Part shown: piece by piece, positions 13,014 through 45,106 of the stretch
Position numbering within the stretch: position 1 is the stretch's first letter
Layout of the letters: every line of letters starts with the position of its first letter
Assembly (NCBI GenBank): GCA_029204225.1
Contig: MU831576.1
Span: 1 to 64,000 of the forward strand
Direction of reading: 5' to 3'
Length of the DNA: 64,000 bases
DNA from: Diphasiastrum complanatum
Lineage: Eukaryota > Streptophyta > Lycopodiopsida > Lycopodiales > Lycopodiaceae
Translations under genes and position numbers: made by a program
Notes under the pieces: model-generated
Seen by the model: the letters and a program-made list of their open reading frames with translations, nothing else
What the model was told of the DNA's origin: nothing
Databases searched by the model: none

Positions 13014-13980
13014 TGAGATACATATATACATTCTAGTTTTTGTGGGGTAGCATTACATGGCAGTTCGGTCCCTATTATAGGACGCGTGTCTCGACTTACT
13101 AGCCACTTACAGACATGTACTATAAAAATAAAAGTGACGCATAACAACTACTATAGATAGTAATACTGGTCAAGTGTTTAGATAATCTGGACTTACTTAT
13201 TCTCACAGCCTCCATTAAGTCCTAGTTTATCTTACATACTCTAAAGAGCTCAAATTTGTTAGCAGTTAATGGCTTAGTAAACACATCTGCTAGCTGGTCC
13301 TCTGTCCTACAATGCACCACTTTGATTCATTAGGTAACAACTTTTCTCTAATGAAGTGATACTTGATTTCTATTTGTTTTGTGCATGAATGCAACATTAG
13401 AATCTATACCAACTAAATGGAGCTTTGAGTCTCACATTTGATCATAGTAGGTTTTCCTTGTGGGATGCCAATATCTTCTTGCATTCTTCACAACCATATC
13501 ACCTCATGTGTGGTTGAGATGGCACGTTATATTCAGCTTCCATTGTAGATAAAGCTATTGTTTCCTGCTTCTTGCTAGATCATGAAAATGCACCATTACC
13601 TAGATGAAAGAAATAACTTGTGGAGGATTTTATGACATCAATATAACCCACCCAATTTGAATCGACATAGCCTTGTAAGATTGGTAAGTCTTGTCCTTTC
13701 TCATGAAAGAGTCCATAAGTTGTCGTGCCTTTAATATAGCAAAGTATTCATTTTGCTGCATTCCTATGCACTTCCCTAGGTGTTGCCATAAATTGGCTTA
13801 CCCGACTAACTGCATAACTTATGTCAGGACATGTTGTGGTGAGATAAACTAAACAACCACTCACAATCATGCATCATGAACCACTTCAAGACTTCATTGA
13901 CATGTTTAGCTTGTGTAATTGCAATTCCATTTTTTTTTGCCATATTTCCACTCCAAGATAATAGTGCATCAAGACAAGAT
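13014..13980 (-). mobile_element. Copia 3' fragment, copy B (tandem with copy A)
   Basis: Same family and orientation as 11331-12130. The LTR starts at 13207 (TGTGAGAATAAG) after a purine tract, and RNase H-end homology (LADVFTKPL-type) lies near 13280-13300. The match then continues to 13980, which corresponds to about 12134 in copy A. It breaks off abruptly at gcatcaagacaagat, where unrelated sequence begins. It contains a block of about 100 bases (13755-13865) absent from copy A, so copy A has an internal deletion there or copy B an insertion. Confidence 0.82.
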
Positions 13981-14172
13981 CATCACAAGCAATGGAGAAA
14001 TCGCATTGGCAAGCTAGAGCAACATTTCATTGAAATACACAACATGGTGGAACATCTCAAAAAAATAGTTACATCATCCAGCTATTTCAATGGTTCTACA
14101 ATTGTGTTCAAATCGGATACAAAACTAGATCAACAAATTATCAAAAATTCAGAAAGGCGTGCAAATTCATAG
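13981..14172 (+). pseudogene. C-terminal end of a coiled-coil-like protein, unknown
   Basis: A plus-strand open stretch begins exactly at the break with the Copia fragment. It reads HHKQWRNRIGKLEQHFIEIH, NMVEHLKKIV and then a Lys/Ser-rich tail to a stop at 14170. The heptad-like spacing suggests a coiled coil. It faces the minus-strand gene end at 14281, the same convergent arrangement seen at 26622/27113 and 17343/17539. No family was recognised. Confidence 0.35.
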
Positions 14173-14280
14173 ACAAAAATAATATTGATGCAAGACTCAA
14201 CTCATAGTAAATTTCATGATATCGGACAAAAAGAGTATATGTATTATATGTCATCATTTCAAGTACAATGTGCAACAAAA

Positions 14281-14675
14281 TCATTGTTCCTCTTTATCTT
14301 TAATGATCAGCTTTGTTGTGTGGTCATGAAGAAATTTTTTTCTATCATATGGATCTAAAAAATCAATAGGTCTTCTTTTGCTCAAGTATATGTATCTGGA
14401 TAAAATAGCCAAGGAGGATGACCTTTTAGGAACTTCCTCAGCTACATAGCCAAATACTTTTATGATAATGTCACTCTTCGCAGAAATAATTTTATATGTA
14501 TTCTGAGGGTATTTATGCCCATTCGAGAAATATGATAACGCTTTAATTGCCATTATTATTGTCGCAGCATATGAAGAAATTTCGCTATAATGAATGCAAA
14601 TCTCTTTATTTACAAAGCACTTCAAATAATGGGACAGGGATGAATTCCTTGTGAAGAATTGCCAAAAATTGGCAA
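14281..14675 (-). pseudogene. Unknown transposon-associated protein A, copy 1 (C-terminal part)
   Basis: The minus-strand frame contains LSHYLKCFVNKEICIHYSE, IMAIKALSYFSNGHKY, VFGYVAEEVPKRSSS and LDPYDRKKFLHDHTTK before the stop. It aligns along its length with the second exon of the plus-strand gene at 26188-26622 (LGHYLRHFLKSEICSSFQ, IMAVKALSFYLGGHKF, ILGFTDGNVPLRSSH, LDAYASREFFHDNTT). Two diverged copies that keep the same pattern imply a real protein family. The function is unknown, and no catalytic motif is visible. The sequence upstream of about 14690 does not match. Confidence 0.6.
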
Positions 14676-14759
14676 ATCTAGCTTGATCAAAAACCATGTA
14701 GTACAATGTAAATTTTGTACATAAGTGGATTCCACACATGTGAGGCCAAGATGCCATGT

Positions 14760-14870
14760 GGCAATCTACTCCTAATGTAGGTTAGGTCAAGTCCATAGGG
14801 CTGGTCATGTCTATTTGGTGGTCATCCCTACTTTATAGGACCTACACCTAACATTAGAGAAAATTTGAAC
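14760..14870. repeat. Imperfect inverted repeat / hairpin
   Basis: ctcctaatgtaggttaggtc (about 14768-14787) and a roughly complementary segment ending ctacacctaacattag (about 14840-14857) flank about 50 bases. Pairing is imperfect. It could be a small MITE relic or a hairpin. Confidence 0.35.
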
Positions 14871-15440
14871 AAAAAAGGGGCCTTTCAAAAAGATACTTTT
14901 TATTTTTTTCAAAAGTTTCTTTCACATGGTCCAATCTTTAAATCTACGTAACGTAGCTCCTTCAAATTGATTTTCTTTTCTTTTTAAAAGAACTATAATT
15001 TTGCGTCGAGGGCAGCCCGTAAATAAGCCATTTTATTTGTAGTATAATATGCAACTTAGCAAAAAAAAAAAAAAAACAGTGTAATTTACTAACAACAATT
15101 TGGATCGAGACGATTATGGTGCCATTGGAAAGCCCTCGATGAGAGATTTTCAATGACACCCAACATGACCCAGTTTTGAGCTATAGTGAAGAAGGTATGG
15201 CCAGTCAAAGTCATTAGAGGAGTTCTCAATATCAAAAAGACCCTTTGTAAAGAAACTTTTATTTTTTTTCTATAGTCACTGGTACAAGCCTATGGTAGTC
15301 CTACGTGGCTTTCCTTTCTTGTTGTGCAAGCTTTCTCCATAGTGCATACCTAAACTTGTATGGCCAAGAGTCATCTCGAGAAAGCACTTCACTGCTTGGA
15401 GTTCATCATGTGTATCGAGGACACCTTGCACTCGAATGTT
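14871..15440. other. Unassigned DNA
   Basis: Contains an A-run near 15060-15077 and repeated ctacgtaacgtag strings (14944 and again at 15612). No gene recognised. Confidence 0.4.
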
Positions 15441-15444
15441 AATA

Positions 15445-15575
15445 GATTCACTCTTCCTAAACTTTTTGTCCAGAAGGCTCGACCCGACATAGCTTATGCC
15501 GTGTTCAGAATGAGCCAATTCAGCACGAATCCAGGCTTAGCACACTGGAAGATCGCGAAGTGAATTTTATAGGAC
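15445..15575 (+). pseudogene. Copia pol fragment (RT/RNase H junction)
   Basis: The plus-strand frame reads KARPDIAYAVFRMSQFSTNP then GLAHWKIAK and a stop. This is the TRPDI.YAV…SQF..NP…HW..AK block that lies between RT and RNase H in Copia elements. Only this short piece is present. Confidence 0.75.
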
Positions 15576-15959
15576 CATCACCAGGCCCAATCAAAATGCA
15601 CAGATTTGAAATCTACGTAACGTAGTTCAAATTAACTAAAAAATAAAAATGCAATATAGAAAACTTTGAAATTTGTTTCCGGGCAGCATGGACGTATCCC
15701 ACTGGTTTCTTCTTCCTGCCCGACACGTGCTAATCTGCCCGACGTCAATATCTCAAGTTAAAATTACTTTACTATGTTGGTTAGTATAATGAAATTTTCT
15801 AACTATACTAGTTACAGTTATAGAAATATAGTATGTAAAATTACATAAAATTTGGTATACTCAGTAACTGTGACTATGTTGGCATTCACATTAGATTAAA
15901 TGTGATATGAAAAATTAAAATTAAGTAACATATCAGAGAGATTTTTGGCGCCCAAGCTT

Positions 15960-17343
15960 TGAAAATAGCAACGGCGAGGAGACCCAGATCTACAATCGAT
16001 TCTGTGATTCTTTACAATGAGAAAGATGAAGCTGATAACTGGAAGCCAACAAAATATACGAAGAACTCATGGGTATTGCTACATCCATCATCAAAGGGCA
16101 ATTTTTGACAAAAGAAAAGAGCAAAAATGACTTACAAATCTTATTGGAAAGCAAAAATTTTGGAGTTTAAGACTATCCCGGGAGGTCAATCGATATCAGA
16201 AGTCTTAGTGCAATATGTATATATGCATTTAGAAATCAAAGTACACCATATCAATCCTCATGATCATCAAAAATGTAATCGTAAGTATATCAAAACATAT
16301 GCACTCTACAGCAATCATAGGTGATTTCCTTTATTGATGCTCTTCAGATTATGATTTAAATGCTTCAACATTGTTTTTTTCCTTCAGATTTATATCCATC
16401 ATGCATAAGTGAATGGGAGCCCGCACAATCACTTGCAGGAATATTAGACGTGATTCACTCTGATGTTGGAAAGCTACAATACAGAGGAAGAAGTCCAAAG
16501 GAACTTGCAGATTGTAGTATCTATTTTTATGAATCTTTATATACGCCACAAACAGATGGAGATTTTGACAAGCTCGAAGCAATTCCATTGCCTAGTTTTC
16601 AAAGTGATGAGTGGCCTACTCCTGACAGCATTGCTTCTGAATCCTTGAGATGCAAGCTACTCATTGATATTTAAAATGCTATGAAGATAAGCACAGGCTC
16701 GAAAATTGTTCACCTAAGTTGGTTTATCTCATTGCATACATTTGCTGATTTTTTCTCGAGTGCTAGTGTTCGTAGGACACCAACTTTATTTGTTTGCAAG
16801 GATTTATCAGATGAGACTTTGTCAGATCTCATGGATCAAGGCTGGGATAGTAAAACAAATAATGACATAGAATGCAGCATTAAAAAGTCCTCAATGATCT
16901 TTCATTATCATATCGAAAAACAAATGCTCGGTCTCACATTTAGCTACCAGAGATACAAGAAAATTGAAGGTACATGGCTACCACTGGATCAAGACTTTGA
17001 ACTAAATGGTCACACAAACCGAATGGAGATAAGCATTATCTACAATGAGGAATATTTGACTATGGTTGAGGTGGAAGAGCACTGGAAGCTTGATTTTATC
17101 AAAACAGAGCTCATTCTATCACAAACCAATCTACCAACATATTTCAGATTTATCATCAACGGAAGACTCGTAAGTACTTTATGTTTATTGCCATTTCAGA
17201 ATAGAACAAAATAATAGAAAATATCATCATTTACAATTGCACATTCACTAATATTTGCCATGTCACAGATGCGAAAAAGACAGGAGCTGATAACGTGCTG
17301 CAAAGATCTACCTACAACAATCACCATTGTGGGAGAACAATAG
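15960..17343 (+). pseudogene. BAH-like domain protein gene, three exons, two stop codons
   Basis: Exon 1 (about 15960-16280) reads DSVILYNEKDEADNWKPTKY, KNSWVLLHPSSKGN, a TGA near 16108, then YWKAKILEFKTIPGG and VLVQYVYMH. Donor GTAAGT and acceptor TTCCTTCAG join it in phase to exon 2 (16388-17169) with HLYPSCISEWEPAQSLAGIL. The order (W-V-L entry strand, YW.A.IL…VLV.Y.Y, then L.PS…PA…G…V) resembles a bromo-adjacent homology domain, a chromatin-reading fold. A TAA lies at 16672. The rest of exon 2 (LFVCKDLSDETL, WLPLDQDFELNG, FRFIINGRL) is unfamiliar. Exon 3 (17269-17343) ends VGEQ* in phase. The 3' end faces the protease gene at 17539. BAH is my best reading but needs a profile search. Confidence 0.5.
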
Positions 17344-17389
17344 TTTCAAATAAACTTTAGTAAAAATCTGTGTATACACCCTTTCATTC

Positions 17390-17395
17390 AATAAA
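17390..17395 (+). terminator. AATAAA polyadenylation signal
   Basis: A perfect AATAAA lies 47 bases after the stop of the BAH-like gene, in the short gap before the convergent protease gene ends. This fits a separate transcription unit. Confidence 0.5.
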
Positions 17396-18695
17396 TGAAA
17401 GCCCAAGTTGGGCATCTATACATGTATTTTGTGCTCCCAAATTCATAAACTGGAGCAGCATTTGATATATCAATGTATATTTTTCTATGAAGTCTATACA
17501 TGTGTTTTTGTTCTATGCTATCTATATTTTTTCTGATCTTAATTTAGTACAACTACATCATCCTTTGCACCATCATCAATAATGGGAGGGTGAAGCCTTG
17601 CCCTAGCCAGTATACTCAGGATAATTTCTTGTCTAAATCTGTACACCTGGCTTGATGTGTACTCAGGAAGTGTAAACTGCAAAATAGAACATTCATGTAT
17701 TAGTAATGGCCAATAACATCACCAGAATAGAAAACTAATCATGATTCCAAAATAAGAATAAGCATAATTTATTACCTTAGAAATATCAACATCTTGTTGA
17801 AGGATGAACCACTCAAAAAATAGCTTGGCATTGTACAATGTGTACCACCCACAATTGAATGAATCATTTTGCTGGGTGACTGCAAAATAATTTAGCACAC
17901 AAGAAATTAATTATGATACAGAATGAATTATATTGAAAATATTTCATTAGAATACTGATTTCAAAATGCTATTAAGAAAGACAAAGTTTACCTCCAAGAT
18001 GACGATCTGCCAGTCCATGGAATGGGGAATGTCTGTAGGAATATATTTACTTAGATATGGAATGAATATATCTACATCCTTATGTGTATTTCTCGCCGAA
18101 TTCATCTTCACACAAGAACATTTAATAATATAGATCTCTTAATAGAGATCATGTTTAAACTCCAGTGGTCACTGCAAAATAAGATTGAAAGTACTTTAGC
18201 GGCAATTCTGAGAACTATTTAAATTGAAAATGTCAATGTTAATGCATAAAACAGGAAGAAGCACTTAAATATCTTACTTGGTATGATATGAAATGACCAG
18301 ATACTTTGTTGCTGGTGTGAATCTACTTGTCAGACACTGTGACAATGTGTCATTATTCTCCTTGAAGGCCTGGAACTGAAAGTTACTCAGCACCAGCAAC
18401 TCGTTTGATGAATCTCTTGCAATGTCAAATTGCAAGAGTGTCAACCCGGACTCTATCACAGGATCACTGATAGAAGCCCGTCTGTCTTTGAGATCCAAGT
18501 GATCTAGAACTCTAAAATTAATACTAAAATGAAGTTCTTCTAGTCTAAAACAAAAAGGAGTACCAATTGTATCCATAGCATCCGATATGTGTTTCTCAAA
18601 TTTAAGATAATCATCCGAATCTATATATGTACAGAAATTGGGAGGAGGAGGAGGAGGTGGATGTGTGGTATCTACAGCAATTATAGAAGTATCCA

Positions 18696-18700
18696 AAACA
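18696..18700. other. Target-site duplication AAACA, left
   Basis: Five bases directly before the left LTR, identical to 23723-23727 directly after the right LTR. Confidence 0.95.
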
Positions 18701-19520
18701 TGTTGAATTTCACACGTGTGGATTGTCCACTACATGTACTTGTGATCTCCTAAGGTGTATAGATGCACCAAGATCAAGACTAGATTGAGATTCAAGATCA
18801 ATCTTGAATCCTATGGCAATAACACACTACTACATGCATTCAATCACTTCCAACTCTCACTCACACATGTGGGAAGTGTTCCAAAAGTATTCTAATTAAA
18901 AACAAGCTGCTCTCCTCAGGTAGAGAGAGAAAAACTATCATGAGCTCTCGGGTAGAGAGAGAAAGCTAGAAATTCAATGACACTTAAAATCCACTCAATC
19001 TCAAAATCAATTAGATCCAAAAGGAGGAGTACAATGATATTAGTAGATTCATGAGCAACCACTATGCTTAACTATGATTGGATCACACTTTTCGACCTCT
19101 TAATCCTATTGGACCATTGATCCATGCACCTCTAAATTCTATTGGACTATATTCAAGCACACCTCAAATTCCTATTGGACCACACATGGTTCCACCTCTA
19201 AATCCTATTGGACCTCTTAAGCTTCATCAAACAAAAGCATGACACTTGTCTACACTCTAATTGGCACAAGTTTGGCTCTATTTTGGCTCAATATTGGCAT
19301 TACAAGTGGAAATGGATAATTTGCCATTGATGCCAAATTTGACCCTATCAACATCCTACACCTAAATGCTTGACTATGAAATTCTATGAGACCCCTATAT
19401 CAAACATTTTGATTTACTTTACAATTCTCCACACGTGGGAACATCCTCCACACATGTGAGATTCACTTACAAACTTCTATCATAAAAAATACCAAGCTAG
19501 ATTTTTGCCAATTTCTCACA
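18701..19520 (-). repeat. Copia 3' LTR
   Basis: The 3' LTR of the minus-strand element. On the minus strand it is preceded by a T-rich and then purine tract (tttttttgaggag, about 19521-19533), the likely polypurine tract. Confidence 0.95.
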
Positions 19521-20017
19521 CTCCTCAAAAAAATAGCTTGGAAAGGTACTAGATCACTTGAGAAGTTTATAAATCTTTTTGAGTGGATCCTTTGGTATGC
19601 ATAAGAAGTGAAGGTCAGCCAAGGGATCCATCATAGCCGCACCCTCACCATATCCATGATAATATCTCTTTGGTAGAGATCTCTTGCCAATGCCTTTGAA
19701 GAGTGCTCCACCAATATGCCACTATTATCATGGGCTTCCTCCATGCTTGATGATGATCTTTGCCTTGAAAGTTCCACTTGCATGATGGATGCACCATAAA
19801 TAGAGAAATCTGAGGCTTCCAAGCCTCATAAGGATCATGGAGATCAAGATCATAAGATGTGAAACAATGATGATTATCAAGATTATGCTTTCTAGCTTGA
19901 CTAGTCCACATACAATGAACTATATCCATGATGGATCTAATCTTGATATCAAAGACTATATTGATCTTTTTTAGTCTAGTTACTCTCTCAAGGATGTAAG
20001 TGTCCACTTTGGATGCT

Positions 20018-21451
20018 TCACTTTTTACAATTTGCCTCAAAACATGTGAAAACATGATTTTCAAAAAAGTGAGTACTAAGCTCAATCTTGTTCTTACTAG
20101 AACCAAGAGCATACTTTTGACAATACAATATCTTGCTTTCAAAAAGTATTGGAAACACATCTAAGTCAATAATGACAAGAAACATGTCCATACTATAAGC
20201 ATCATACAAAACTAGTATAGCTTTTCTTGAACTTTGAGATCCAAAAAATTCAATGAAGCAAGATAGCATTTCAAGCAAAGGAAGAGAAGCATATATGAAT
20301 GTGTTGTAGTAGATACAACATGAAAGATGCCCCTCTTTGCCATGTAAGGTGAGCCATAAAGACTCGGCCATGCATCTTGAAGATCTTCTTGAAATCATAT
20401 GAAGAAGAAACTCCTCCTCATACATTGGCCCCATCATAACTTGAATACCTTCAAAAAGGATAACTTGTGATGCTTCTTGAGAAGCCTTGATCTCGGCCGC
20501 TTCCAAGATTGAATCTTCATGCAATATGACATCTCTATTCACGATCACATTTGAAATAGAGAGTGTAAAGACACTAAAGGCCTCCTTGATGGATGAGTAT
20601 CCAATCATGATCCATGCGCTTGGATCATCCTTCCTTCTTGTTTCCAAAGGAATATGTGCAAAGCAAGCACTACCAAGTTCACTAAGGTGATCAACCTTAG
20701 GCTTCATCTTGAATAAAACTTCATATGGTGCTATTCCTTCAAGAGCTCCAATACTCCTCAAAGCTTTGATCTTCAATGAGAATTTCTTCTCAACATATGC
20801 TTTGAATAATAAGGAATAATCATACACCAAAATACTTGAAGAGAGAAGATATGTGTATCTTGTGTAATCCTCCTCCTTTGAAATATTGGAAATATAAGAA
20901 ACATCAAGAGAGTTTGCACTCTCACTTGGATCCAATTTGTAGATGCCTTCAAATCTTGATCCAGATGCAAGGATCTCACCATCCTTCTTAATCACACAAT
21001 TGTCAATATTGAAATTGACATCAAAGCTACTATCAAGAAGTTGGCCAACACTTAAGATGTTCTTTGTAAGCTTTGGGACAAAAAGAACATTGTTGAGAAA
21101 GAGATCTTTAGAAGATGCAAGCTTCAAGGGAATAATCCCTACTCCTTCAATATTGCACTCATGCTTACTTGCAAAGTATATGGTCTTCTTGACTCCATCA
21201 TAAGGCATAATGGATGAAAAAAAGTGCTTGGAGCCACACATATGCGAAGATGCTCCACTATCAATATACCATGAGTCATCCTTGTTGAAGGTGGAAGAGG
21301 AGAAGCTTGATGCCATAAGAGAGCCTTCTCCATCACTTGCAATATAGTCTTCTTTCTCATTGGTGATGTTGGCTTGATTGAGTTGATTCTTCTTCTTGAA
21401 GCAATTGGTGGCATAATGTCCTTTTTTGCCACAATAAAAGCACTTGATCAT
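20018..21451 (-). CDS. Copia nucleocapsid-protease-truncated integrase frame
   Basis: It begins MIKCFYCGKKGHYATNC (CCHC zinc knuckle). The aspartic protease follows (DSWYIDSGASSHMCG), then FVPKLTKNILSVGQL. The integrase is cut down: the HHCC domain and most of the core are missing, with YVEKKFSLKIKALRS joined to GIAPYEVLFKMKP and then HIPLETRRKDDPSAWIMIGY and VIVNRDVIL. The remaining frame to the stop does not look like RT. Internal deletion has produced a long but non-functional pol. Confidence 0.88.
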   Translation of the reverse strand: MIKCFYCGKKGHYATNCFKKKNQLNQANITNEKEDYIASDGEGSLMASSFSSSTFNKDDSWYIDSGASSHMCGSKHFFSSIMPYDGVKKTIYFASKHECNIEGVGIIPLKLASSKDLFLNNVLFVPKLTKNILSVGQLLDSSFDVNFNIDNCVIKKDGEILASGSRFEGIYKLDPSESANSLDVSYISNISKEEDYTRYTYLLSSSILVYDYSLLFKAYVEKKFSLKIKALRSIGALEGIAPYEVLFKMKPKVDHLSELGSACFAHIPLETRRKDDPSAWIMIGYSSIKEAFSVFTLSISNVIVNRDVILHEDSILEAAEIKASQEASQVILFEGIQVMMGPMYEEEFLLHMISRRSSRCMAESLWLTLHGKEGHLSCCIYYNTFIYASLPLLEMLSCFIEFFGSQSSRKAILVLYDAYSMDMFLVIIDLDVFPILFESKILYCQKYALGSSKNKIELSTHFFENHVFTCFEANCKK

Positions 21452-21645
21452 CTTCTTCTTGAGATTTGAATTAGAAGCATGAGAGGTATCCTCCTCCTCT
21501 CCATCTTGGTCTTTAGCTTTGTCATTAGAGAAGTGATGTGTTGCTTCTTACTCCTCTCTTTGTGCTTGGCAAATAGAACTTTGCCATCATCATGATTGAG
21601 TGATAGCTTGTCCATCCTCAAGAGTTTGTACTCTTGTCTTGATTC

Positions 21646-22203
21646 TTAAGAAATAAGCACACTTTGAAGGGCCTCCAAACTTGGTAGCTCCTCCTTAATA
21701 GCATAGGATTGGACAAGGTTGTCATATTCATCTCTCAAGCCATTGAGAATGACTTGGACTAGCTCACTTTGATTGATTGAGTCACCAATACATGCAAGCT
21801 CCCTATGAATATCCTTGACTCTCAAAACATAACTAGATGCACTCTCATCACTCTTTTGACTACTTTGGAATATTTGATTTCTAAGAGTGAGGAGCCTAGA
21901 GGTGTTCTTAGCCTCATAGATGGACTTGAGACAATCCCAAGCTTCCTTGGATGTAGAACAATCACCAATCTCCCTCAATATCTCATTAGAGACATTCATC
22001 TTAATGTAGTGGAGAGCCATCCTAGCTCTCTTCTTGTAGTTTTGTACTTCTTGAAGGACTTGAGGCTCCTCCTCAATCCCAAGTACAATGTCCATCACAT
22101 CTTGGAGTATCAAGATGGACTCCATCCTCAACTTCCATATTGAATAATTGGAAGTAGACAATCTCTCACTTGGTTGCAACAAGTATGATCTCATTGAAGT
22201 CAT
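21646..22203 (-). CDS. Copia gag (capsid) open frame
   Basis: About 185 residues: MTSMRSYLLQPSERLSTSNY, YSIWKLRMESIL, AWDCLKSIYEAKNTSRLL, YVLRVKDIHRELACIGDSI and ILNGLRDEYDNLVQSYA. This is the UBN2-type gag pattern of plant Copia elements. The start is a plausible ATG. The frame ends at 21646, and the zinc-knuckle part lies downstream in another frame, so a frameshift or short deletion separates gag from pol. Confidence 0.9.
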   Translation of the reverse strand: MTSMRSYLLQPSERLSTSNYSIWKLRMESILILQDVMDIVLGIEEEPQVLQEVQNYKKRARMALHYIKMNVSNEILREIGDCSTSKEAWDCLKSIYEAKNTSRLLTLRNQIFQSSQKSDESASSYVLRVKDIHRELACIGDSINQSELVQVILNGLRDEYDNLVQSYAIKEELPSLEALQSVLIS

Positions 22204-22892
22204 GTAAAGTGGAGATAGATAAAAGTGATGAACAAAAAATGTTGCTTCTCTCTCACTATAGGATCCAATAATGGTGTGCTACCATCTCCTATGCAAGATC
22301 TTGCAACAAACTGTGAGATGATTCTCACTAGCTATCTCAATCTCTCCAAAACTAGATCTACTTACACATCAAATGATGGAGTATGGGAAAAGTTAGGATC
22401 AAACACTCTTATCACGTGTGAAATACACTAAGAAACCAAATTTGACTCAAATACAATGATATTGCATGAAACAAAATAGCTAAGATTTCAAAACAGTGCC
22501 TAGATCACATATAGATGAGATTGGTAAGCATTCAACTATGATTTTGGATCAAACAAGCAATCTTTTGACCAAACCAAATGTGTCCACACAGGTCTAGGTG
22601 CCCTACCTAACCCTCTTCAAAAGCTTATAACTAGCTTCAAAACAAGCTATCTAGCAAGATTTTTGGATCAAACATGAAAGGGATCTACCAAACTGAAATT
22701 GGATGTTCCTCACACGTGTCTGAGCACCTGATTCCGTACAGTACCAGGTCAGACCCAATCAATGTCCTTTTTATCTCTTTTGATCCAAAATTGAACAAGA
22801 TAGCTAGGAAAATGGGCCTTGACAATTTCTAGCTCAAGATTGAAGAATAGTTTTCACTCAAATGGATCAAAATGCATGGTAACCTTAGGTAG

Positions 22893-22904
22893 GCTCTGAT
22901 ACCA
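22893..22904 (-). promoter_or_regulatory. Primer-binding site, initiator tRNA-Met type
   Basis: TGGTATCAGAGC on the minus strand directly abuts the 5' LTR. This is the classic plant Copia primer site complementary to the 3' end of initiator tRNA-Met. Confidence 0.95.
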
Positions 22905-23722
22905 TGTTGAATTTCACACGTGTGGACTGTCCACTACATGTACTTGTGATCTCCTAAGGTGTGTAGATGCACCAAGATCAAGACTAGATTGAGATTCAAG
23001 ATCAATCTTGAATCCTATGGCAAAAACACACTACTACATGCATTCAATCACTTCCAACTCTCACTCACACGTGTGGGAAGTGTTCCAAAAGTATTCTAAG
23101 TAAAAACAAGCTGCTCTCCTCGGGTAGAGAGAGAAAAACCATCATGAGCTCTCGGGTAGAGAGAGAAAGCTAGAAATTCAATGACACTCAAAATCCACTC
23201 AATCTCAAAATCAATTAGATCCAAAAGGAGGAGTACAATGATATTAGTAGATTCATGCTACCACTATGCTTAACTATGATTGGATCACACTTTTCCACCT
23301 CTTAATCCTATTGGACCATTGATCCATGCACCTCTAAATTCTATCGGACTATATTCAAGCACACCTCAAATTCCTATTGGACCACACATGGTTCCACCTC
23401 TAAATCCTATTGGACCTCTTAAGCTTCATCAAACAAAAGCATGACACTTGTCTACACTCTAATTGGCACAAGTTTGGCTCTATTTTGGCTCAATATTGGC
23501 ATTACAAGTGGAAATGGATAATTTGCCATCGATGCCAAATTTGACCCTATCAACATCCTACACCTAAATGCTTGACTATGAGATTCTATGAGACCCCTAT
23601 ATCAAACATTTTGATTTACTTTACAATTCTCCACACGTGGAAACATCCTCCACACATGTGAGATTCACTTACAAACTTCTATCATAAAAAATACCAAGCT
23701 AGATTTTTGCCAATTTCTCACA
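22905..23722 (-). repeat. Copia 5' LTR
   Basis: Partner of 18701-19520. Its inner end is directly followed (minus strand) by the primer-binding site at 22893-22904. Confidence 0.95.
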
Positions 23723-23727
23723 AAACA
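23723..23727. other. Target-site duplication AAACA, right
   Basis: Five bases directly after the right LTR. Excising the element with one duplication copy restores the interrupted reading frame (…ATSVLDTS…). Confidence 0.95.
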
Positions 23728-23906
23728 GAGGTAGCTGTATTTACAGCATTATCAACAGCAGCATTATCTACAATAGATTATGGGATAGGCTTCACTTTCT
23801 TAGGAGCACGCTTGGGGGCTGTCTGCTTCCTAGGATGCTTCGTAGGAAGATGAGTCCTATCTACAGGAGTTGGTCTAGAAGCAGCAGGCTGAGATACATG
23901 TAACCT

Positions 23907-24176
23907 ACAGTACCTATCTCTCATTCTCATCAGAAGGTGAAAATCCTTGGGCATTATGGTAACCCTCTTGGTATGGATGGCAAGCAAAAAAAAATCCTCA
24001 AAAGAAAGGCTAATATAATCTTCAACAGCCTCCTGAAGGCACTGAAGAGCACTCGGTGTGAATCTAATGTGCTGTCCGAGATCATTTCTTGTTATGTTCC
24101 GGACAGCATGGTAGAATGGAACTCTTGGGATCAACAGAGCTGTTGACCTCTGATACTTGCGTATCTCAGAGAGCCA
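23907..24176 (-). pseudogene. Histone H3-fold domain with CENH3-like residues
   Basis: About 90 residues match the H3 fold end to end: WLSEIRKYQRSTALLI (alpha-N), PFYHAVRNIT, RFTPSALQCLQEAVEDYI (alpha-2), FEDFFLLAIHTKRVTIMPKD (L2) and FHLLMRMRDRY (alpha-3). H3 hallmarks kept are EIRKYQ.ST.LLI, LQEA, AIH.KRVTIMPKD. LLIP, AVEDY and KDF resemble CENH3 more than canonical H3 (LLIRK, EAY, KDI), and loop 1 is one residue longer than in H3. The canonical tail is absent; a Pro/Lys-rich tail follows the fold instead. It sits inside a transposon-like cluster, not in a histone locus. Confidence 0.88.
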
Positions 24177-24286
24177 CCTGCTGCGGTTGCACGTTCTAGG
24201 TCTAGCAGGTGGTGTGTGGCAACCGCAAGAGATTAGGATGAGCCAGGAGAGAAGAAGTCTCTCCTTGTCTGCTTTCTCCTATCCAT

Positions 24287-25117
24287 GGGCGTGAACTATG
24301 TGATAGCGGACTTGTGCATGAAGGTTAGGATGAGAAGGAAGGGATGATAAAGAACTCGCAGAGGACCGCTATCTATGGACAGAATGTACGGTATATCGGA
24401 CCTATGCGAGCCACATATCGAAGAGAACAATTAGATTTGAGGAAAGACGCACAAGTGCGATATGGGGTGACACGTAGGCAGACGTATCGAACCTGTGTGC
24501 ATGGAAGATAGTAGGAGGAATTTTGATTGTGAAGGGCGCCCACAAATGCGATATGCGGAGCAAAAAGAAAAGTGAAAAAAATTCATCAAAATTTGTGATT
24601 TTATATCGGGGTTCGCACGTGCGAAAGAACGTCTTGTCACACGTGTGGGAGTTGTACAGACAAATGCGAGAGCGACATGTGTCACCCTGTCACACTACAT
24701 GTGTGGGATTTGTACGATCGAATGCGAGAGCGACACGTGTTTATGAGCAATCGAATGAACACGCGACACATGTCTAGGTGTCATTTCACACGTGTGCAGG
24801 TGTCATCTCACACATGCCTGTGCCTATTGTCAAATTGAAAGTAGACACGTGTCATAAGTCCGTTGACACACGTGCAAAAATTTAGTATAAATGGCACGAA
24901 AACCGAATAATTTTTTACCTTTTGCATTCTCGAAATTTGTGACATATCGCTTTTGTGCCCGCTCATTGCTGTCCGTTTGCTTGCAAGTATACCTATTCGC
25001 GCACAAGTGCGATATTCAATATCTGTCTGCCATACATATCCATCTTCTGCGTCATTTTGATAGTTAGTTTTGGTTCAGTTCTCCCACACGTACAAGTGCG
25101 ATATTCATGCTACTGCC
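24287..25117. promoter_or_regulatory. Divergent intergenic region with CACGTG array and 13-bp repeat
   Basis: The region between the minus-strand H3/protease gene and the plus-strand gene at 25118. Six perfect CACGTG palindromes lie at 24616, 24640, 24734, 24789, 24846 and 24869, with several ACATGTGT variants between them. ACAAGTGCGATAT occurs at 24451, 25013 and 25092, with ACAAATGCGATAT at 24542. Such density is far above background for A+T-rich DNA. It could be a bidirectional promoter bound by bHLH/bZIP factors, or subterminal transposase-binding sites. Several matches lie just upstream of the start at 25118. Confidence 0.6.
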
Positions 25118-26622
25118 ATGGCCTCTTCCTCATCATCCTCACAAGAATCAAACTTGAGTTCATTTCTGAGTGAATTTGGGATTACTGAAAATCTAGACTA
25201 CTTCCACAGCCTATTCAGGCCATATCTACATGTTTTCAGGACTGCACAACCAAATTCTGACGTATTTTATGAACATTATGTCAGATTCAAAGGTATACTT
25301 AGCAAGCATGTTTTCTCCATAGGTCAACTCCAGTTCATGCATTATATTGATCTTCTTCATTTCTTCCCAGCTTTTAGACATAGACTGGATAGAATGTTCA
25401 TCAAATTGTTTGATCTTTTCAAAAGTAGTTCTATGTGTCCGTATTGCAACAAGAAATGTCGATTGGTTGAATATCATAGTGGTTTCGTACTTTTTCTTTT
25501 AGTTCAGATCCCAGATGATGATGAAGTTCTTGTTGTTGACCCTCCTTTTGCACCCTCCTCAACCATTAAGGATATCAGTCACTTTTTTATCGACACTCCT
25601 GATAAAAAAAGTAACTTCATTGATTTAAATACTGATGTTCTCGAGATTCTTTCATTGGCCAAAATACATCTGATGATGAATCCAAATCTATGGAGGATTC
25701 GAAATGTCTTTTCAATTTGTCTGTATATTATATTAATGACGATGTATATTTTACTACTGCTGATTTATGTAAATTTTTTGACTATCGTGAGGACGAGGTT
25801 CTATGTTTATTATCCGGCACAATTTCTGAATTCTCTAACTTTGTAGATTTTGAGACAGATGACCTTGTTGTTGGTATTGATTTTGATGATGAGGAGGGTC
25901 TTATGACCTGTGAAGAATGCCTGAATAAGACTTTATCAAATATAGCTGAGGATGGGCGAGGCAGACCATTCGATGAAGAATTCACGGCATTTCAATCCTA
26001 GATGGGCTTCCCTCGTCTATCATTAATGCATTTCACTGATGATTCCACTTAAGTACGTGGTCATTATATTGATCATCCTGATCTGGTTGCTATAGATGAT
26101 GAAGAATGTGTAAGTGTTTAATCTTCCTTGCATTTGAATGTTTTCAATCACTGAATGAGTCTTTTCTAACATATTTCCTATTGCAGGATGCTCTCATAAT
26201 AGATGATTTTGCTGCGAGATGAGGTGGTTTCAGACAACACACATTCTCGTTCCAGGGGGACAGTGGACTGGGCCACTATCTTAGGCATTTCTTGAAGAGT
26301 GAGATTTGTAGCTCATTCCAAGCTGAGCCCAGTCGGGGAGAGTCTTATAATGGCAGTTAAAGCTTTATCATTTTATCTAGGAGGACATAAATTTGTTCAG
26401 ACAAATAAGATCATTTTTGTCAAAAGATCTTATGTTTTGAACATTTTAGGCTTTACTGATGGGAATGTTCCTTTAAGGAGCTCCCATTATTCATTGTATT
26501 CCACTTATATTGAGCTTAGTGAAAATAAGGATAATGCACATCTATTAGATGCATACGCTAGCAGAGAATTTTTTCATGACAATACTACCATAGAATCTGA
26601 TACAAGATCTGATGATGAATAG
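25118..26622 (+). pseudogene. Unknown transposon-associated protein A, copy 2 (two exons)
   Basis: The start ATG (MASSSSSSQESNLSSFLSEF) lies just after a copy of the 13-bp repeat. Exon 1 (25118-26109) has SSSMCPYCNKKCRLVEYHSG, a possible zinc site. A frame slip near 25665 leads into SDDESKSMEDSKCLFNLSVY and the acidic GIDFDDEEGLMTCEECL. In-frame stops follow FTAFQS (near 26000) and near 26050. GTAAGT at 26110 and TTGCAG before 26188 join DEEC to DALIIDDFAAR in phase. Exon 2 has a TGA, then LGHYLRHFLKSEICSSFQ and, after a slip, IMAVKALSFYLGGHKF to the end. The last part matches 14281-14675. The function is unknown. The 3' end faces the transposase-like gene at 27113. Confidence 0.6.
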
Positions 26623-26719
26623 TTGACATTTTGTATAATACAATCAATACATTTACATTGGGTATTGCTCCTCTTTTGTTCAATGAATTTGCAAAGCAAT
26701 TTTGAACATGTCATGATGA

Positions 26720-26758
26720 TCTTCTACTCAGCAATGATGATCTTCTACTCAACAATCA
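26720..26758. repeat. Short tandem duplication
   Basis: gatgatcttctactcagcaa is followed by gatgatcttctactcaacaa, two units of about 20 bases in the spacer between convergent genes. Confidence 0.85.
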
Positions 26759-27112
26759 TCTAGTTTTCTCTTCATGTATGAACTTGCATGCTTTTCTAAA
26801 CTTGTTGTATTGTGTGGACTTTGTTATATGTCGAATCTGAACTCTGCGGTAGAACCACTGAAACAATTGACAAATGTAGTTTTGTTTTTCATTAGTTCCT
26901 CCATGTTGTGTATTTCAATGAGATGTTGCTCGTGCTTGCCAGTGTGACTTCTCCATCCCTTGTGATGACCATACACTCAAGCTTCCATATGTATTTGCAA
27001 AAAATGCTGTATGATCTCTTAGTATGTGCTGCATATGTCAAAATCATAATGTTAGTCTTATGTTTAGATCTAAATATAAATGAAAATTTGAAAGCATTTT
27101 GAAAATTTTATA

Positions 27113-29140
27113 CTAACCATGTAATGAGTGATGTTTAACAAACTCGACACAAGTCCTTTGGACAGCTTTCTTATCAATAACAGAGTATTTTTCTTTTCTT
27201 AAAATAGCAATCATACTATCAAGCTTTTTCCATACATCAACTTTTAGTACTCTGGTTTTGCCGTCTTTCTCAAAGTCCTGAGTGGCAGCAATAATATCTA
27301 TCCAGACTGAGTGTTGAATATTAGAAGCCTTACCAGTATGATTTGATAGAAAACGTCGTGCTTTTGCTCCTCCTATGCTTGGCTTAGTTGGCATGTTCCC
27401 ATTCTTTCCTGAAAGCTTTTCATCTTTTTGAATTTTGACATGTCCTTTATGGAGTCCTGCTTTTGATAAAACATCTTCTAATCGAGAGATAACTTCCTTT
27501 GCTAATGATGTTGGCTTAGTATTCCAAGCAAAAACTATATGAAGATAAATAATCTTTTCTATTAATCTAACTGCTGCATGAAGAGTGCAAACATGCACAT
27601 TTTTTAAGGGGATAGGCAGCACAGGCTTCCAGTTTGGATATGCATATTCTCTAGTAATTCTTGTACTCCTAGTTACATCTTTTGCCATTTTCATGCAGTA
27701 CAAACAAGGGTGTTTTGATGTAGCACCGTGAGAGACATTATACATACATTTCAATGTTTTCAAATCACCTGCTAAGTGCCATTCAAAATTGAAGTCACCA
27801 ACTCCTGGAACATTGAGAAATCCTCCATCCATATGGTCCTTGATGATCCTAGGATAAGATGTCCTTGAGAATATCCATGATAATATATCATGATCCTCTT
27901 TCAGCACCTGTCCAAAGAATTAATCATACTTAGTTTACAATGTATTAATACTATTCAATGAATGTAATGTAATGATGAGGCTAGTTACTTGGAACGCTGC
28001 CAACCATCATATATCATTTTCTGACTGGACACTGAATTTGAAATCTTCTTGGTTCTCTGTTTGGGATAGAGCACCATTCATGAGAGTTATACTAACCCTT
28101 TCCATCTTCTGCCCTTTCACAATTTCTGACTCATCTAACTTAAGTACTATGATTATTTTGCCATTCACCTTTTCATAGGTTATATCATAGAATGTGACGA
28201 TGTATCTCAGTAAGTAATTTAGATCAGCAAATAAATTGTTTGATAAATTATAGAATATCGATCTTCCACCAGTTTCATACACCTTCTCAATGTGAAATGG
28301 AGTTCCAGTGATCTTATGCATACCTATGTTAAATGTATCCCTCTCTTTCTTCAAGTGATATGTCCTAGGGATTGGGACTTTTCTAATTTGAACTTGCTTA
28401 AAAGCTTCTCTAATTAGTTTAAATATTGTTGCATATGCTTCCCTAATAATACCTGCAAAATTACAAACACCCTGAACTATAGTCTTATCTAAAATATTTT
28501 GAATGTCCACCATCAAAGACTCTGCTATATTACACTTTACATTTGAAATCCTATTGTTCATCATGATACGCTCTGTGGATTTTCAAGTCAATATTGTGCC
28601 CAATGACATTCCTAGTGAAGCATTGTCTTTAATATTCCAAGGAGCTACTAATGCAGATCTGCAAAAAAAACAGATAGATAATAGAATATCACCATAGCTG
28701 AAATTTAATCCAAATGTCATTGAAAAACTTACAAAATTTAGAATATGCTTACTTGAATGCACGGATCCTTCTATTTCAATAACCTCCTTTTGAAAGCGTT
28801 TGAATATCCTTGCAACTTTGTCACTTTCGCTTCTTACTTTCAGCCTTCTTCTTTACCAAATCCACATCCTTCAGTAATTGTAAGTTTTCAATACGAATAG
28901 ACTGTAAGACTGATTGCATTTGCTCTAGTTTTGATTCTATATTGATTGCTATCTTCTATAATGATTCATTATTTTTTTTAAGTTGTTCATTTTCTTCTAA
29001 CGTCTTTTGGAGATGACAATCTCTATTCTGACAATAAGAGGATATTCGAATTAACTCACCTTCTAAAAAGTCAACTTTATTCATATAAAGTTGTTTTCCA
29101 TGGTTTTCCAATCTTTCACAATATCCTAGTAATCAACTAT
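27113..29140 (-). pseudogene. DDE (RNase H-fold) transposase-like gene, three exons
   Basis: Minus strand. Exon a (about 29140-28753) is a coiled coil (YCQNRDCHLQKTLEENEQLK, IENLQLLKDVDLVKKK) with stops. Exon b (28658-27989) opens after TTTTTTTTGCAG with SALVAPWNIKDNASLG. It includes GKIIIVLKLDESEIVKGQKM, in which Asp is the likely first catalytic residue, and ends WLAAFQ|GTAACT after a TGA. Exon c (27907-27113) continues in phase: VLKEDHDILSWIF, then EWHLAGDLKTLKCMY with a second Asp, HGATSKHPCLYCMK (C-x2-C) and a Lys-rich C-terminus. The Asp…GDxxxL…PCxxC layout resembles CACTA/Plavaka-type and related uncharacterised transposases. The third acidic residue was not placed. The superfamily is unassigned. 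Confidence 0.6.
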
Positions 29141-29399
29141 GCCCATTGCATATCCATATAACTAAATGAGTTATTGAAGAGAATGTGGGATGTGTCAAAG
29201 TGCTTGGATCTTGTGGATATAATGTTCCATCTATCAACCTCCTCGCCAACAGTTTGTTTCACAGAACCAACACCAGCATTACCCACCATGAAACAAACAA
29301 GTCCATATACAAGAGTTTCCCAGACAATCTAGACATGAACCTCAACCACAACTGGTGCACTTAGGACCATTTTGAAGGGGACAACAAGATCTAGGAGCT
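29141..29399. other. Boundary between the DNA-transposon-like cluster and a Gypsy fragment
   Basis: Coiled-coil homology on the minus strand ends near 29140. Gag-like plus-strand coding begins near 29400. No terminal inverted repeat was recognised at this edge. Confidence 0.35.
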
Positions 29400-36865: not shown

Positions 36866-36938
36866 TTTTTTTGAGACATTTATTCTCACTTACCCTATTT
36901 TTTCATCTTCTCTCTCTCCACCACCTCCTAGCAGAATA

Positions 36939-37812
36939 ATGGGCCCATCAAAAGGCCTAGCCGACACATACAAAGCCCGACGGGATGAGTTTCTTCAACA
37001 ACTCCTCTCCCCCAGTGCGACGTTAAACCCACCTCCTCCTAAACATGTCATCCCTGCACCTCTCTCTCCAGATCACTCCATCTCTGACCTCCTAGAAGTT
37101 AACACCGACATTGGGGATGATGATGACTTCCTGGCAGATCCACCGGAGTCAAGACGATTCTCGCCAAGACAAGACACGGGTGCAACTGAGCCATCAATGA
37201 GCGAACGACAAGGAAAAAGATACGGGCACAAAGGCCTTGGATGATTACCTGACAAGGCCGCCCCAACCACGTAGGGCAACTTCTCCTGCCAGGCCCAGAG
37301 GCAAGATGGCTGATACAAAAGAATCAGAGAAATTCAAAAGGAAATACCCTCCCAACATGAGGGGAGACAAAGAGGAGATAGATCAAAGCCAATACTCCAC
37401 CAAGGCTGAGATCATTGCAGCATTACAATCACAACCTGAATGGCGGAGCAAGATCCTAAAGGATAGCAGGCGGCTCCAAGAGTACCTGAAGGCACCGGCA
37501 TGGAAGCGAATAGATCCATTCTACATGCCACTCAAATATAGAAATCCATGGCCGACAGAAAAGTCACGGGTCGAGTCGGTGAACTTGCCACTGATTCCGA
37601 GAATTTCAGAGAGAATCTCCCCGGATGACCTGAGGCTACAGTTACTAGATTTCGGGCACAAATACAAGACAAGTGCCGATCTATGCGCAAGAAAGTGTCG
37701 AATATTGCCGATCCATGGCCTTTCTAATGTAGCAAGAATATTTCTGGGATTTTGGTTTGGATCCAATCAAGATCAATCCCAACGTAGCCCTCCAATTAGA
37801 AAAAGACCATGA
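36939..37812 (+). pseudogene. Extra ORF part 3: acidic/basic region
   Basis: MGPSKGLADTYKARRDEFLQ, HVIPAPLSPDHSISDLLEV, GDDDDFLADPPESRRF, then in another frame MADTKESEKFKRKYPPNMRG, AALQSQPEWRSKILKDSRRL and FYMPLKYRNPWPTEKSRVE. Further homology-like sequence in a third frame (CRSMAFLM… then VTFMSSQYVTMVEDWQEMGF) reaches about 37910. Unrecognised, and broken by frame slips. Confidence 0.4.
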
Positions 37813-37919
37813 GATGATGGCCTAGTTATACTATAGAGTGACCTTCATGTCATCACAATACGTCACCATGGTGGAAGACTGGCAGGAAATGGGCTTCATC
37901 AAAAAGATAAAATTGATGG

Positions 37920-38990
37920 TTTGGAGTCAATTCAAGTGGAGGAGCAAGCTCAAGACCCGAGGACTCCAGATGTTGATCAACTGATAAAGAGTTGCACATT
38001 AGACTCTCCAATGATCCAAAGGACACGTTCTCATGATTTTGACATGTATATAGTCAAAAATATAGACGATCTCGGAGGAGAATTTATGTTTTGTATTGAT
38101 GATATTAATTTTTACAATGCATATCAAAGACCACATTGTAAGGAGCTAAAGGAGAAGACCTTTCATATCTTAGACACAATCATTGAATTTGGGTGTGTAT
38201 ACTATGTACATAAATACACATATACATTCACGAAGGAGATTTTTGTTGTATCTCCATTTTTTGGGCATTTGTTTCATAAAGAGAGGCAAGCCAAAAGGCT
38301 CTTCAGATACACAAGCAAGGAGGCATCAATATTCATCATCCCATACTGTGCAAAGTAAGATAATTTTTTTTTGTAAGATTTGTCTTTTGGAAACTCTTAT
38401 AGATTCTAGTAATTCATTGCTTGTTGTCATTTGCTGGTTGCAAACATTGGAGCGTGCATATGATATCTTTGAAAGTGGATTCTACTAGAAGCTGCACACC
38501 TATGTGCATGACAATGAATTCCTTGAATGCCACCCATGTCATTGTTAACTCCATGTACAAGAGGATGGTGGAGCTATTGTCCATGCCAGATCGGCTGATT
38601 ATAATTACTAACATAGAGATTGTTGATGCAAATGTAAAAGGATCTTTTCATGTTTTTATCTACATGATGGCATAGAGTTTAAAATTATATTGAATTATAA
38701 TCTGACAAATTTTCGTTGTAATCTCTCAGTCTTCGCAACAAGACGATGCTTTCAGCTACGGATGGTTTTCCATCTAGAATGTTAAATCATTCTTGGATTG
38801 GTATATGATGCGAATTCCAAATGCTAATATACGTGAGGTAAATTTCTCAACTTACAATATCCTGATGATATTATGTTAACTTTGTGTAATTATATATTTT
38901 TAGACATTGGCTAATACATACATACACTCGATGTTTTAACTACTTTAGAACCTTAAAAAGAAGGTCTATACTTAATTTGCATATCATTCT
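37920..38990 (+). pseudogene. ULP1-type protease gene, second copy, catalytic Cys replaced by Tyr
   Basis: A plus-strand paralogue of 17539-18700. Exon 1 ends FRYTSKEASIFIIPYCAK at CAAA|GTAAGAT, the same place and donor as the first copy. Exon 2 (from about 38439) has HWSVHMISLKVDST and CMTMNSLNATH, but its acceptor reads TTGCAA instead of TTGCAG. Exon 3 (about 38731-38834) follows CTCTCAG: SSQQDDAFSYGWFSI*NVKS, where the catalytic Cys of the first copy (SFNCGWYTL) is Tyr (TAC). A last exon may start near 38908. No H3 fold precedes it; Gypsy sequence does. It is inactive by several lesions. Confidence 0.75.
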
Positions 38991-44063: not shown

Positions 44064-44847
44064 TCATGACTGCTTGCTTTTAAGTGCAGCCTGGCGCCAT
44101 CGCTTAACGTAAGCGAGCAATTTTTCTGGATCCGGGAAGATCACTTCGGCAGCTGGGTGTTCACGAATGGCTTCGAAAAACTTGTGCAAGTTTGGAGCTT
44201 CTTCCGCTGTGGGAAGGCCTGCACCTGCCTGCTCCTCAAATATAGGCAGAAACCAAGCCACGAATGGCGCCAGACATATATCTGCATAGCCGATGCTAGA
44301 TCCGTTGAAGAATGGCTTCGCGTCAAGTTTAGTGAATCCGCCCTCAAGCGTTAGAAAGTTTTCATAGAGTTCGCTCAAGGCGGCTTCTTGTTTGTCTCCT
44401 TCGGCCTTCAAAGCGAAGAAAGCTACTTCAAATATCTGCAGTGACCAAAACACGCGTACGTAATCAGATACGATCGTTCCAGCATCAACGTCAGAATTGA
44501 ACAGTATAGTAACTTGAAACTTGCGCTACCTTTTTATCGATAAAATCGCTCCAGAAATGTGTCATAGCTCGTCCATATGGATCCTTGGGAAAGAAACTGG
44601 CATGTTCTGGCCATGCCTCATCCACATACAGAATGATGAGGAGAGATTCTGGGATCGCTTTTCCCCTATGAAGAAGCACTGGGATCATTTTAAACACAGG
44701 GTTAGATTCCAGCAACAGTTGGCTTTTCGCACTAAGGTCCTCCTCAATTGCTGTGTACTTCACTCCTTTCGCCTCCAGAGCCAGGAGTGCACGCATCGCA
44801 TAGGGACTGGCCCAGAATGAAAGTAGTTTCACGCCCTCCGTCGCCAT
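44064..44847 (-). CDS. Tau-class glutathione S-transferase, two exons, intact
   Basis: Exon 1 (44847-44530, 106 codons) starts MATEGVKLLSFWASPYAMRA; the Ser of WASPY is the expected catalytic residue of tau GSTs. KMIPVLLHRGKAIPESLLI contains the cis-Pro and the Glu-Ser pair that binds glutathione. Intron 44529-44436 (94 bases, GT…AG) lies where tau GST genes usually have theirs. Exon 2 (44435-44064) carries the all-helical domain: LYENFLTLEGGFTKLDAKPF, GYADICLAPFVAWFLPIFEE, and ends LKSKQS*. The product is 229 residues, normal for the family. It would be a cytosolic enzyme conjugating glutathione to xenobiotics or oxidised metabolites. An upstream in-frame GTG extension exists, but ATG 44847 fits the family. 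Confidence 0.96.
44436..44529 (-). other. GST intron
   Basis: 94 bases, donor GTAGCG and acceptor CACTGCAG on the minus strand. Phase 0 between GAT-AAA-AAG and ATA-TTT. Confidence 0.93.
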
Positions 44848-45106
44848 TGAAGCAAACAGCTTGTTGTTTCGAAGCTTGAATAGGGTCTGTCCTGTGATAC
44901 CGTTATATGATCTTAAATATCCAAGTCTGCAAAATTTGGACAAAGTGAAGCTCGTCACAAAAGTAGCTTATGGATTATGCAACAGCAAAGAAGACGATTG
45001 ATAATATTCCCACAATTGCAGATAAAATGAAAGCATTCAGCATACAAACAAATTAACAACACAACGAAAGTTGAGCTACTAAGTGCAGAACGACAGGCCT
45101 GAGTGC

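Follow-up and report, generated by a model that had tools for sequence, protein, structure and literature searches.

A predicted histone H3 fold joined to an Ulp1-type protease in a family of DNA transposons of Diphasiastrum complanatum

What is a histone H3 fold doing next to an Ulp1-type protease among transposon-like genes? The question is raised by a 64,000-nt stretch of Diphasiastrum complanatum DNA (contig MU831576.1, positions 1 to 64,000), which was analysed as a whole and is called the window here. An earlier note, made from the letters of the DNA, had proposed that a mobile element in this stretch carries its own H3-like chromatin component together with a SUMO-protease-like enzyme. 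A DNA transposon with several genes is present in the window as a damaged copy, and less damaged copies stand elsewhere in the same genome (1.745 Gb in 5176 contigs, the source of all copies described below). In these copies, the H3 fold and the protease are predicted to be parts of one protein, named H3-Ulp1, and it is close to certain that such a fusion exists in the transposon.

The H3 fold of the window lies at 24167-23916 on the minus strand, inside a 166-codon open reading frame (ORF) at 24278-23781. This ORF matches the Pfam Histone family with an E-value of 3e-24 (86.1 bits, cut-off 26.4) and the best PDB matches of the fold are H3 chains (2e-20), which bears out the H3-fold domain claimed in the earlier note. 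Aligned with canonical H3, the fold is 54% identical (45/83 positions), with K56 replaced by Arg and K79 by Gly. An ATG at 24286 opens MDRRKQTRRD, resembling the H3 start MARTKQTARK, and the fold is followed by the basic tail RKQTAPKRAPKKVKPIP and a TAA at 23780-23778, two features that had also been read correctly. The ULP1 motifs NDHWSL and QQNDSFNCGWYTL were found, as claimed, at 18171-17776 (minus strand), and the exons that hold them, when concatenated with an X at each break, give a Peptidase_C48 match of 2e-7. With such E-values and multiple copies, a chance resemblance is excluded. In the direction of its own transcription, the window gene is laid out as follows.

23723..24286, minus strand: H3-Ulp1 exon 1 before the Copia insertion, with ATG, tail, H3 fold, basic tail and TAA; open in relatives
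18701..23722, minus strand: Copia-type long terminal repeat (LTR) retrotransposon within exon 1; LTRs at about 18701-19520 and 22903-23722, Pol_BBD and SH3_retrovirus domains
18278..18700, minus strand: H3-Ulp1 exon 1 after Copia, with the proline-rich linker and the first part of the protease region
17992..18171, minus strand: H3-Ulp1 exon 2, with the catalytic His in NDHWSL; frame-shifted in the window copy, from comparison of copies
17776..17879, minus strand: H3-Ulp1 exon 3, QQNDSFNCGW with the catalytic Cys; from splice signals and comparison of copies
17539..17676, minus strand: H3-Ulp1 exon 4 including the stop codon; from AG/GT signals and comparison with other copies

The Copia insertion, 5 kb long and with LTRs that are 98% identical, sits in the linker of H3-Ulp1, with AAACA at both edges (18696-18700 and 23723-23727). 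When its flanks are joined, the H3 frame extends across the linker as far as the exon-1 splice donor, and the TAA is its sole stop. The earlier description of an H3 fold in frame with ULP1 and interrupted by one TAA therefore holds for the gene before the insertion, while the Copia element in the linker had been overlooked. Exon 2 is frame-shifted relative to other copies. The N-terminal tail that starts at the ATG is in a different frame from the fold and runs into a stop, so that the window gene is broken by this stop and frame change, by the TAA, by the Copia insertion and by the frame shift in exon 2. The TAA itself is a lesion of the window copy, since at this position 16 of 18 loci (L009-L026) have Glu (12), Lys (3) or Asp (1), the residue not being read in the other 2; copies without the TAA, which the earlier note had proposed to seek, thus exist. 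A reading as two separate genes, in which the TAA would be a genuine stop, was rejected in view of the open relatives and of the frame of the joined flanks. A further locus, L027, has an H3 part equal to that of the window and the same gap of ~5 kb between H3 and linker, and is for these reasons a duplicate that includes the Copia insertion.

A genome search with the window H3 ORF gave 7704 first-look candidates, of which 150 copies were scored, with identities to the query of 74-100%. In 44 of the 150 there is no stop inside the H3 match, and 20 of those 44 lie in open frames of 326-343 codons. These copies refute a host H3 pseudogene, which, as a single occurrence in the genome, had been named beforehand as an outcome that would overturn the proposal. 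Of twenty stretches retrieved, each at most 10 kb long, 18 (L009-L026) were selected for a stop-free H3 match and 2 for equality with the window. In 13 of these 18 loci, themselves selected for stop-free H3, a single ORF begins at MDRRK, spans the H3 fold, basic tail and linker, and reaches the exon-1 donor; the separate H3 and protease genes that the earlier note had also considered were not found. Exons 2-4 follow exon 1 with GT-AG introns (8 loci printed). In L010, L015, L021 and L022, exon 1 is open, exons 2-4 are stop-free and the catalytic Cys is kept, and the His, Gln and Cys of the Ulp1 active site are all present. The L010 protein, 470 residues long after splicing at inferred sites, matches Pfam Histone at residues 27-123 (1e-27, 97.3 bits, cut-off 26.4) and Peptidase_C48 at residues 316-442 (1e-10, 42.2 bits, cut-off 20.7). 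The product predicted for the less damaged copies is one continuous protein, composed of an H3-like tail (MDRRKQTRR…), the H3 fold, the basic tail, a proline linker and an Ulp1/C48 protease. In a simulation of neutral decay the open frame was kept in 11% of 2000 runs, a result that is indecisive taken alone.

By comparison of these loci, a family of DNA transposons was shown to carry a predicted transposase and the genes X, H3-Ulp1 and Y, flanked by inverted terminal repeats. Read in the direction of H3, the order is transposase (same strand), X (opposite), H3-Ulp1 and Y (opposite), and all four genes occur in this order and orientation in 10 of the 18 loci, among which L013 and L017 are identical. 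The right end reads CTCTAATG in 8 of 10 printed copies and CTCCAATG in 1, and L026 stops short; the flanks beyond these ends are unrelated between copies, except in the pair L013/L017. The opposite end starts CATTAGAGGAG, and the inverted repeat of the two ends is matched at 35/35 bases in copy e10 and less perfectly in copy e22, where the full-length element measures 9305 bp. The mobile element with an H3-like component and a SUMO-protease-like enzyme, as envisaged earlier, is supported by the copies, the sharp ends and the inverted terminal repeats. The window copy has an intact 3' terminus, at 15212; towards the transposase, its homology to other copies ends at 29238. The remaining features are the following.

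15212..29238, minus strand: H3-Ulp1 transposon copy of the window; homology to other copies between these limits
15212..15246, plus strand: terminal inverted repeat CATTAGAGGAGTTCTCAATATCAAAAAGACCCTTT; sequence read and compared with the ends of other copies
15277..15572, no strand: small insertion in the terminal region, missing from the relative L022; from comparison of copies
16109..17344, plus strand: gene Y, convergent with H3-Ulp1, edges approximate; relatives adjoin H3-Ulp1 in other copies
24287..25117, no strand: spacer separating X from H3-Ulp1, which are divergent
25118..26622, plus strand: gene X, decayed in the window copy; relatives adjoin H3-Ulp1 in other copies
26759..29238, minus strand: transposase-like gene, start cut off; 58 database relatives and D, D, C-x2-C and H-x4-H motifs

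Judged from its position, the spacer at 24287..25117 probably holds the promoters of both X and H3-Ulp1, and the corresponding spacer of 15 copies is on average 91% identical to that of L010. Gene X has no Pfam match and gene Y none above the cut-off. The window transposase has one in-frame TGA (seen by eye), at which the relative P0127 has Trp.

The only organism named among the 58 database relatives of the transposase is the fern Adiantum nelumboides. In an alignment of 25 of these relatives with two window pieces, a CIYC-type C-x2-C was present in 23 of 27 rows and H-x-C-T-x-H in 25 of 27, two rows being without the region and the last E not being located. The CMCT clade is described as having C(2)C and H(3-4)H between the second D and the last E, CA...TG termini and target-site duplications of 2-5 bp (PMC12730594). 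The element termini, CATTAG...CTAATG, fit the 5'-CA...TG-3' of this clade, and the predicted transposase carries CACTA/EnSpm-like (CMCT) motifs. No Pfam transposase model was among the 20 families listed for the 27 alignment members, and the transposase profile found nothing convincing in the PDB. On the ground that the families listed include no Pfam transposase model, a KDZ transposase and a Mutator transposase (Vandal/KIU) were rejected. An endogenous virus was rejected as well, as scans of viral contigs with the H3 piece, a transposase relative, the database protein P0123 and alignment A2 confirmed no relative.

The association of H3 with the protease is not confined to one form. Beside the form described so far (H3a), predicted H3 folds were shown to stand next to Ulp1-type exons in two diverged subfamilies, H3b and H3c. 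H3b is 33-37% identical to H3a and matches Pfam Histone at 2.9e-11; its genome search gave 6046 candidates, of which 150 copies were scored. It starts with MARTKQT in 5 of 16 loci, and in L040 one 395-codon ORF runs from H3b into a linker. In L042-L044, Ulp1 motifs follow ~1 kb downstream of H3b on its own strand; L043 and L044 look alike. H3c belongs to a decayed element upstream of L013, which also has, on the opposite strand, an X-like ORF (30% identity over 101 residues); the tail of H3c reads MARTKSIARAI, and its fold plus basic tail is 46% identical over 114 residues, with one stop and one frame change. The next exon of H3c is related to the Ulp1 copy at 37.8-38.8 kb of the window (34% over 73 residues, 5e-9). 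In a fold tree, which is small and whose reference set is partly provisional, H3a, H3b and H3c stand apart from canonical H3, CENH3 and H3d; the split has a support of 93/93, the tool's mark for strong support being 95. Canonical H3 is separately present in the genome, with 13 near-complete matches of 97-99% identity. H3d (KWLQDIRSYQKSVKFLIPRAPFVRLVKEI, loci L055-L064) is a fourth multi-copy H3-like type, in which a polyproline N-terminal part replaces the H3 tail; in the small tree its place is with canonical H3 and CENH3, the dN/dS (ratio of nonsynonymous to synonymous substitution rates) of its fold is 0.56 (10 loci), and no Ulp1 match was found within the 0.6-1.4 kb examined per locus.

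The predicted H3 folds were shown to evolve under constraint, including that of the diverged subfamily H3b, the pooled dN/dS of the fold being 0.43 in H3a (22 loci) and 0.29 in H3b (15 loci). Residues that are invariant in H3/CENH3 are kept at 31/40 positions versus 14/43 for variable residues, in a comparison for which 3 of 4 reference sequences were provisional, references other than the database matches being used because the latter share words with the query and would introduce bias. In the tail, numbered as in H3 with the residue after Met as 1, position 4 is Lys in 26/26 H3a loci and in 14/16 H3b loci (Arg in 2), whereas position 9 is Asp in 23, Tyr in 1, Asn in 1 and Glu in 1 of the 26 H3a loci, and Ile in 7, Gly in 7 and Val in 2 of the 16 H3b loci; these counts include duplicate loci, such as L001/L003/L027, L004/L005, L013/L017 and L040/L041, and the tail search pattern presumed a K or K/R codon, every locus tried being found. 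The one copy of H3c has Lys at 4 and Ala at 9. In the aligned tails of three lineages K4 is thus mostly kept and K9 lost, the third lineage being represented by one decayed copy.

Several known systems resemble the new element in part. The CMCT transposons (EnSpm/CACTA, Plavaka, ESTA and Lanisha, among others) share with it the transposase with D, D, C-x2-C and H-x4-H, and the CA...TG termini (PMC12730594), but the new element is without a Pfam transposase match, no target-site duplication was found, and it has four genes and the H3-Ulp1 fusion. Ginger1 transposon proteins likewise have a C-terminal Ulp1 domain, which is fused to an integrase-type transposase, and the main text of that paper (PMC2836005) has 0 occurrences of the word histone. 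Marseilleviridae encode histone doublets, that is, core histone folds outside the host genome proper (PMC5704553); unlike the new element, these are viral doublets with no protease fusion and no transposon. H3 and CENH3 share the complete H3 fold and the H3-type start of the N-terminal tail, while the new protein differs from canonical H3 in having K9, K56 and K79 replaced and a long C-terminal extension with the protease. Vandal/KIU elements of the Mutator-like group are DNA transposons with an accessory gene for a protein with an Ulp1 domain; they encode anti-silencing proteins, some with such a domain, that lift the silencing of their own kind (PMC13317346). The new element has no Mutator transposase match in Pfam and its Ulp1 part is fused to an H3 fold; Vandal/KIU is the nearest precedent for a possible anti-silencing role. 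Transposons are also described as encoding SET and TET enzymes (PMC12730594), which edit chromatin marks. The open-access literature, from which subscription journals and Repbase stand apart, gave no report of a transposon-borne core histone, and a 2026 review on gene capture by plant transposons does not once use the word histone in its main text. To our knowledge no transposon-made histone has been known before, and this would be the first if the reading is true.

An H3-like histone joined to a SUMO-protease-like enzyme suggests that the element brings its own chromatin-shaping tool. Transposon proteins such as VANC counter silencing. The H3-Ulp1 protein would act in trans, in the nucleus, on the chromatin of the element itself: the histone fold would dock it on nucleosomes or histone chaperones, through pairing with H4 or in substitution for H3, and the docked protease would strip SUMO from silencing proteins. 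As the tail keeps K4 and lacks K9, K4 methylation could be present in chromatin built with it, and the silencing mark of K9 could not. The net outcome would be anti-silencing, or the opening of chromatin for transposition, and the chances for and against this mode of action are about equal. The whole explanation, an H3-Ulp1 transposon family with such an action on chromatin, we consider moderately probable. A broader scenario is put forward tentatively, with the balance somewhat against it: a DNA transposon lineage would have captured H3 once, joined it to Ulp1 and long kept it, pairing a silencing-resistant histone, with a tail readable at K4 and closed to methylation at K9, with deSUMOylation so as to cover its own DNA with chromatin that the host is unable to silence. 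The single capture in that scenario is drawn from the tree split of 93/93, just under the strong mark. A multi-copy histone that keeps K4 and lacks K9, coupled to a SUMO-protease-like enzyme, would give a direct handle on the escape from silencing and on the origin of histone variants, and calls for caution, as counts of H3 genes in such genomes may take in transposon copies.

Other explanations divide the same evidence differently. The histone fold might tether the transposition complex to centromeric or H3-replacement chromatin, with the protease only maturing or releasing the complex and silencing being irrelevant. The window copy agrees with plant CENH3 at some of the positions that distinguish it from H3 (LLIP, IT and RFT among them, against provisional references), and an Arabidopsis retrotransposon reportedly integrates through CENH3 chromatin. 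However, the trees do not put the fold with CENH3: it lies outside the two plant CENH3 in one tree (provisional references), another tree gave no resolution, loop 1 is one residue longer than in H3, and the fold was not assigned to CENH3. The scored copies, in addition, are spread over contigs C1 to C24 and many small ones, and targeting appears unlikely. The protein might instead be a decoy or inhibitor that competes for histone chaperones or K9 methyltransferases. Methyltransferases are known to be blocked when a histone lysine is replaced by Ile or Met, and position 9 is Ile in 7/16 and Val in 2/16 H3b loci; yet inhibition is not expected from Gly in the other 7 H3b loci nor from Asp in 23/26 H3a loci, the term H3K9I was not found among the literature matches listed, and the decoy is less probable again than targeting. 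For a passive cargo, that is, a host H3 that was captured, became joined accidentally to the Ulp1 of the element and was simply copied along, one can cite the lesions in many copies and the frequent capture of gene pieces by transposons (PMC13317346). The fold dN/dS of 0.29-0.43 and the persistence of H3 beside Ulp1-type exons, although the H3 identity between subfamilies is only ~35-46%, make it quite improbable. Core histones are normally host-encoded, which would speak for a host histone gene or pseudogene beside unrelated transposons; with 150 scored copies, the same neighbours and ends in the fetched loci and canonical H3 present separately in 13 near-complete matches, it can be practically dismissed.

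The chromatin-acting fusion has to be set against several points that weigh on it. Among the 150 scored copies, 106 have stops inside the H3 match. In an inspection of 17 loci by exact anchors, which miss diverged exons, exons 2-4 were stop-free in 6, of which 4 keep the catalytic Cys; it is replaced by Tyr in L012 and by Arg in L018. The position of the triad Asp is occupied by Asn according to the Ulp2 alignment and by Lys according to the Ulp1 alignment, and no alignment gives Asp there, so that classical SUMO-protease activity is not assured. Constraint is little in the H3a linker (dN/dS 0.63, 21 loci) and none in its basic tail (0.99, 22 loci), and for all these ratios the selection of copies partly for open frames biases intactness and lowers dN/dS somewhat, while decayed copies raise it. 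No target-site duplication was found in the 3 copies with both ends, which are few and possibly rearranged. The catalytic exons of H3c fall outside the stretch examined, and only some of the genes of the H3b and H3c elements were seen. The closest relative of the H3 part in the protein database is 56% identical.

One protein-database search returned 7 H3-containing proteins and no whole relative of H3-Ulp1. Among database relatives of H3, 70 of 123 fit a loose pattern (P0005-P0119), and many of them, on ENA contigs, share a non-canonical tail of ~70 residues (YPPIDRKLPVLYISRPKERTELGHRVLDWTDEQKRKIHEARMQGRLVKPHRYRAGT); the proteins with this tail may be an amplified, perhaps repeat-borne, H3 family of another genome. 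P0123, from a 23.5-kb jgi contig, is a strongly diverged H3/H4-like protein of 267 residues with long charged flanks, for which no relative was confirmed among viral contigs.

Elsewhere in the window, positions 13979-14781 hold a fragment of a diverged element, in which the C-terminus of a transposase (plus strand) and gene X (minus strand) stand tail to tail, an arrangement shared with the main copy. Another Ulp1 gene copy, also diverged, lies at ~36937-38860 on the plus strand, its Ulp1-related part being at ~38.0-38.8 kb, and has no recognisable H3 part; its catalytic Cys is changed to Tyr (QQDDAFSYGW). At 44064-44967 on the minus strand, ORFs resembling plant glutathione S-transferase (by eye) form the sole host-like gene noticed in the window.

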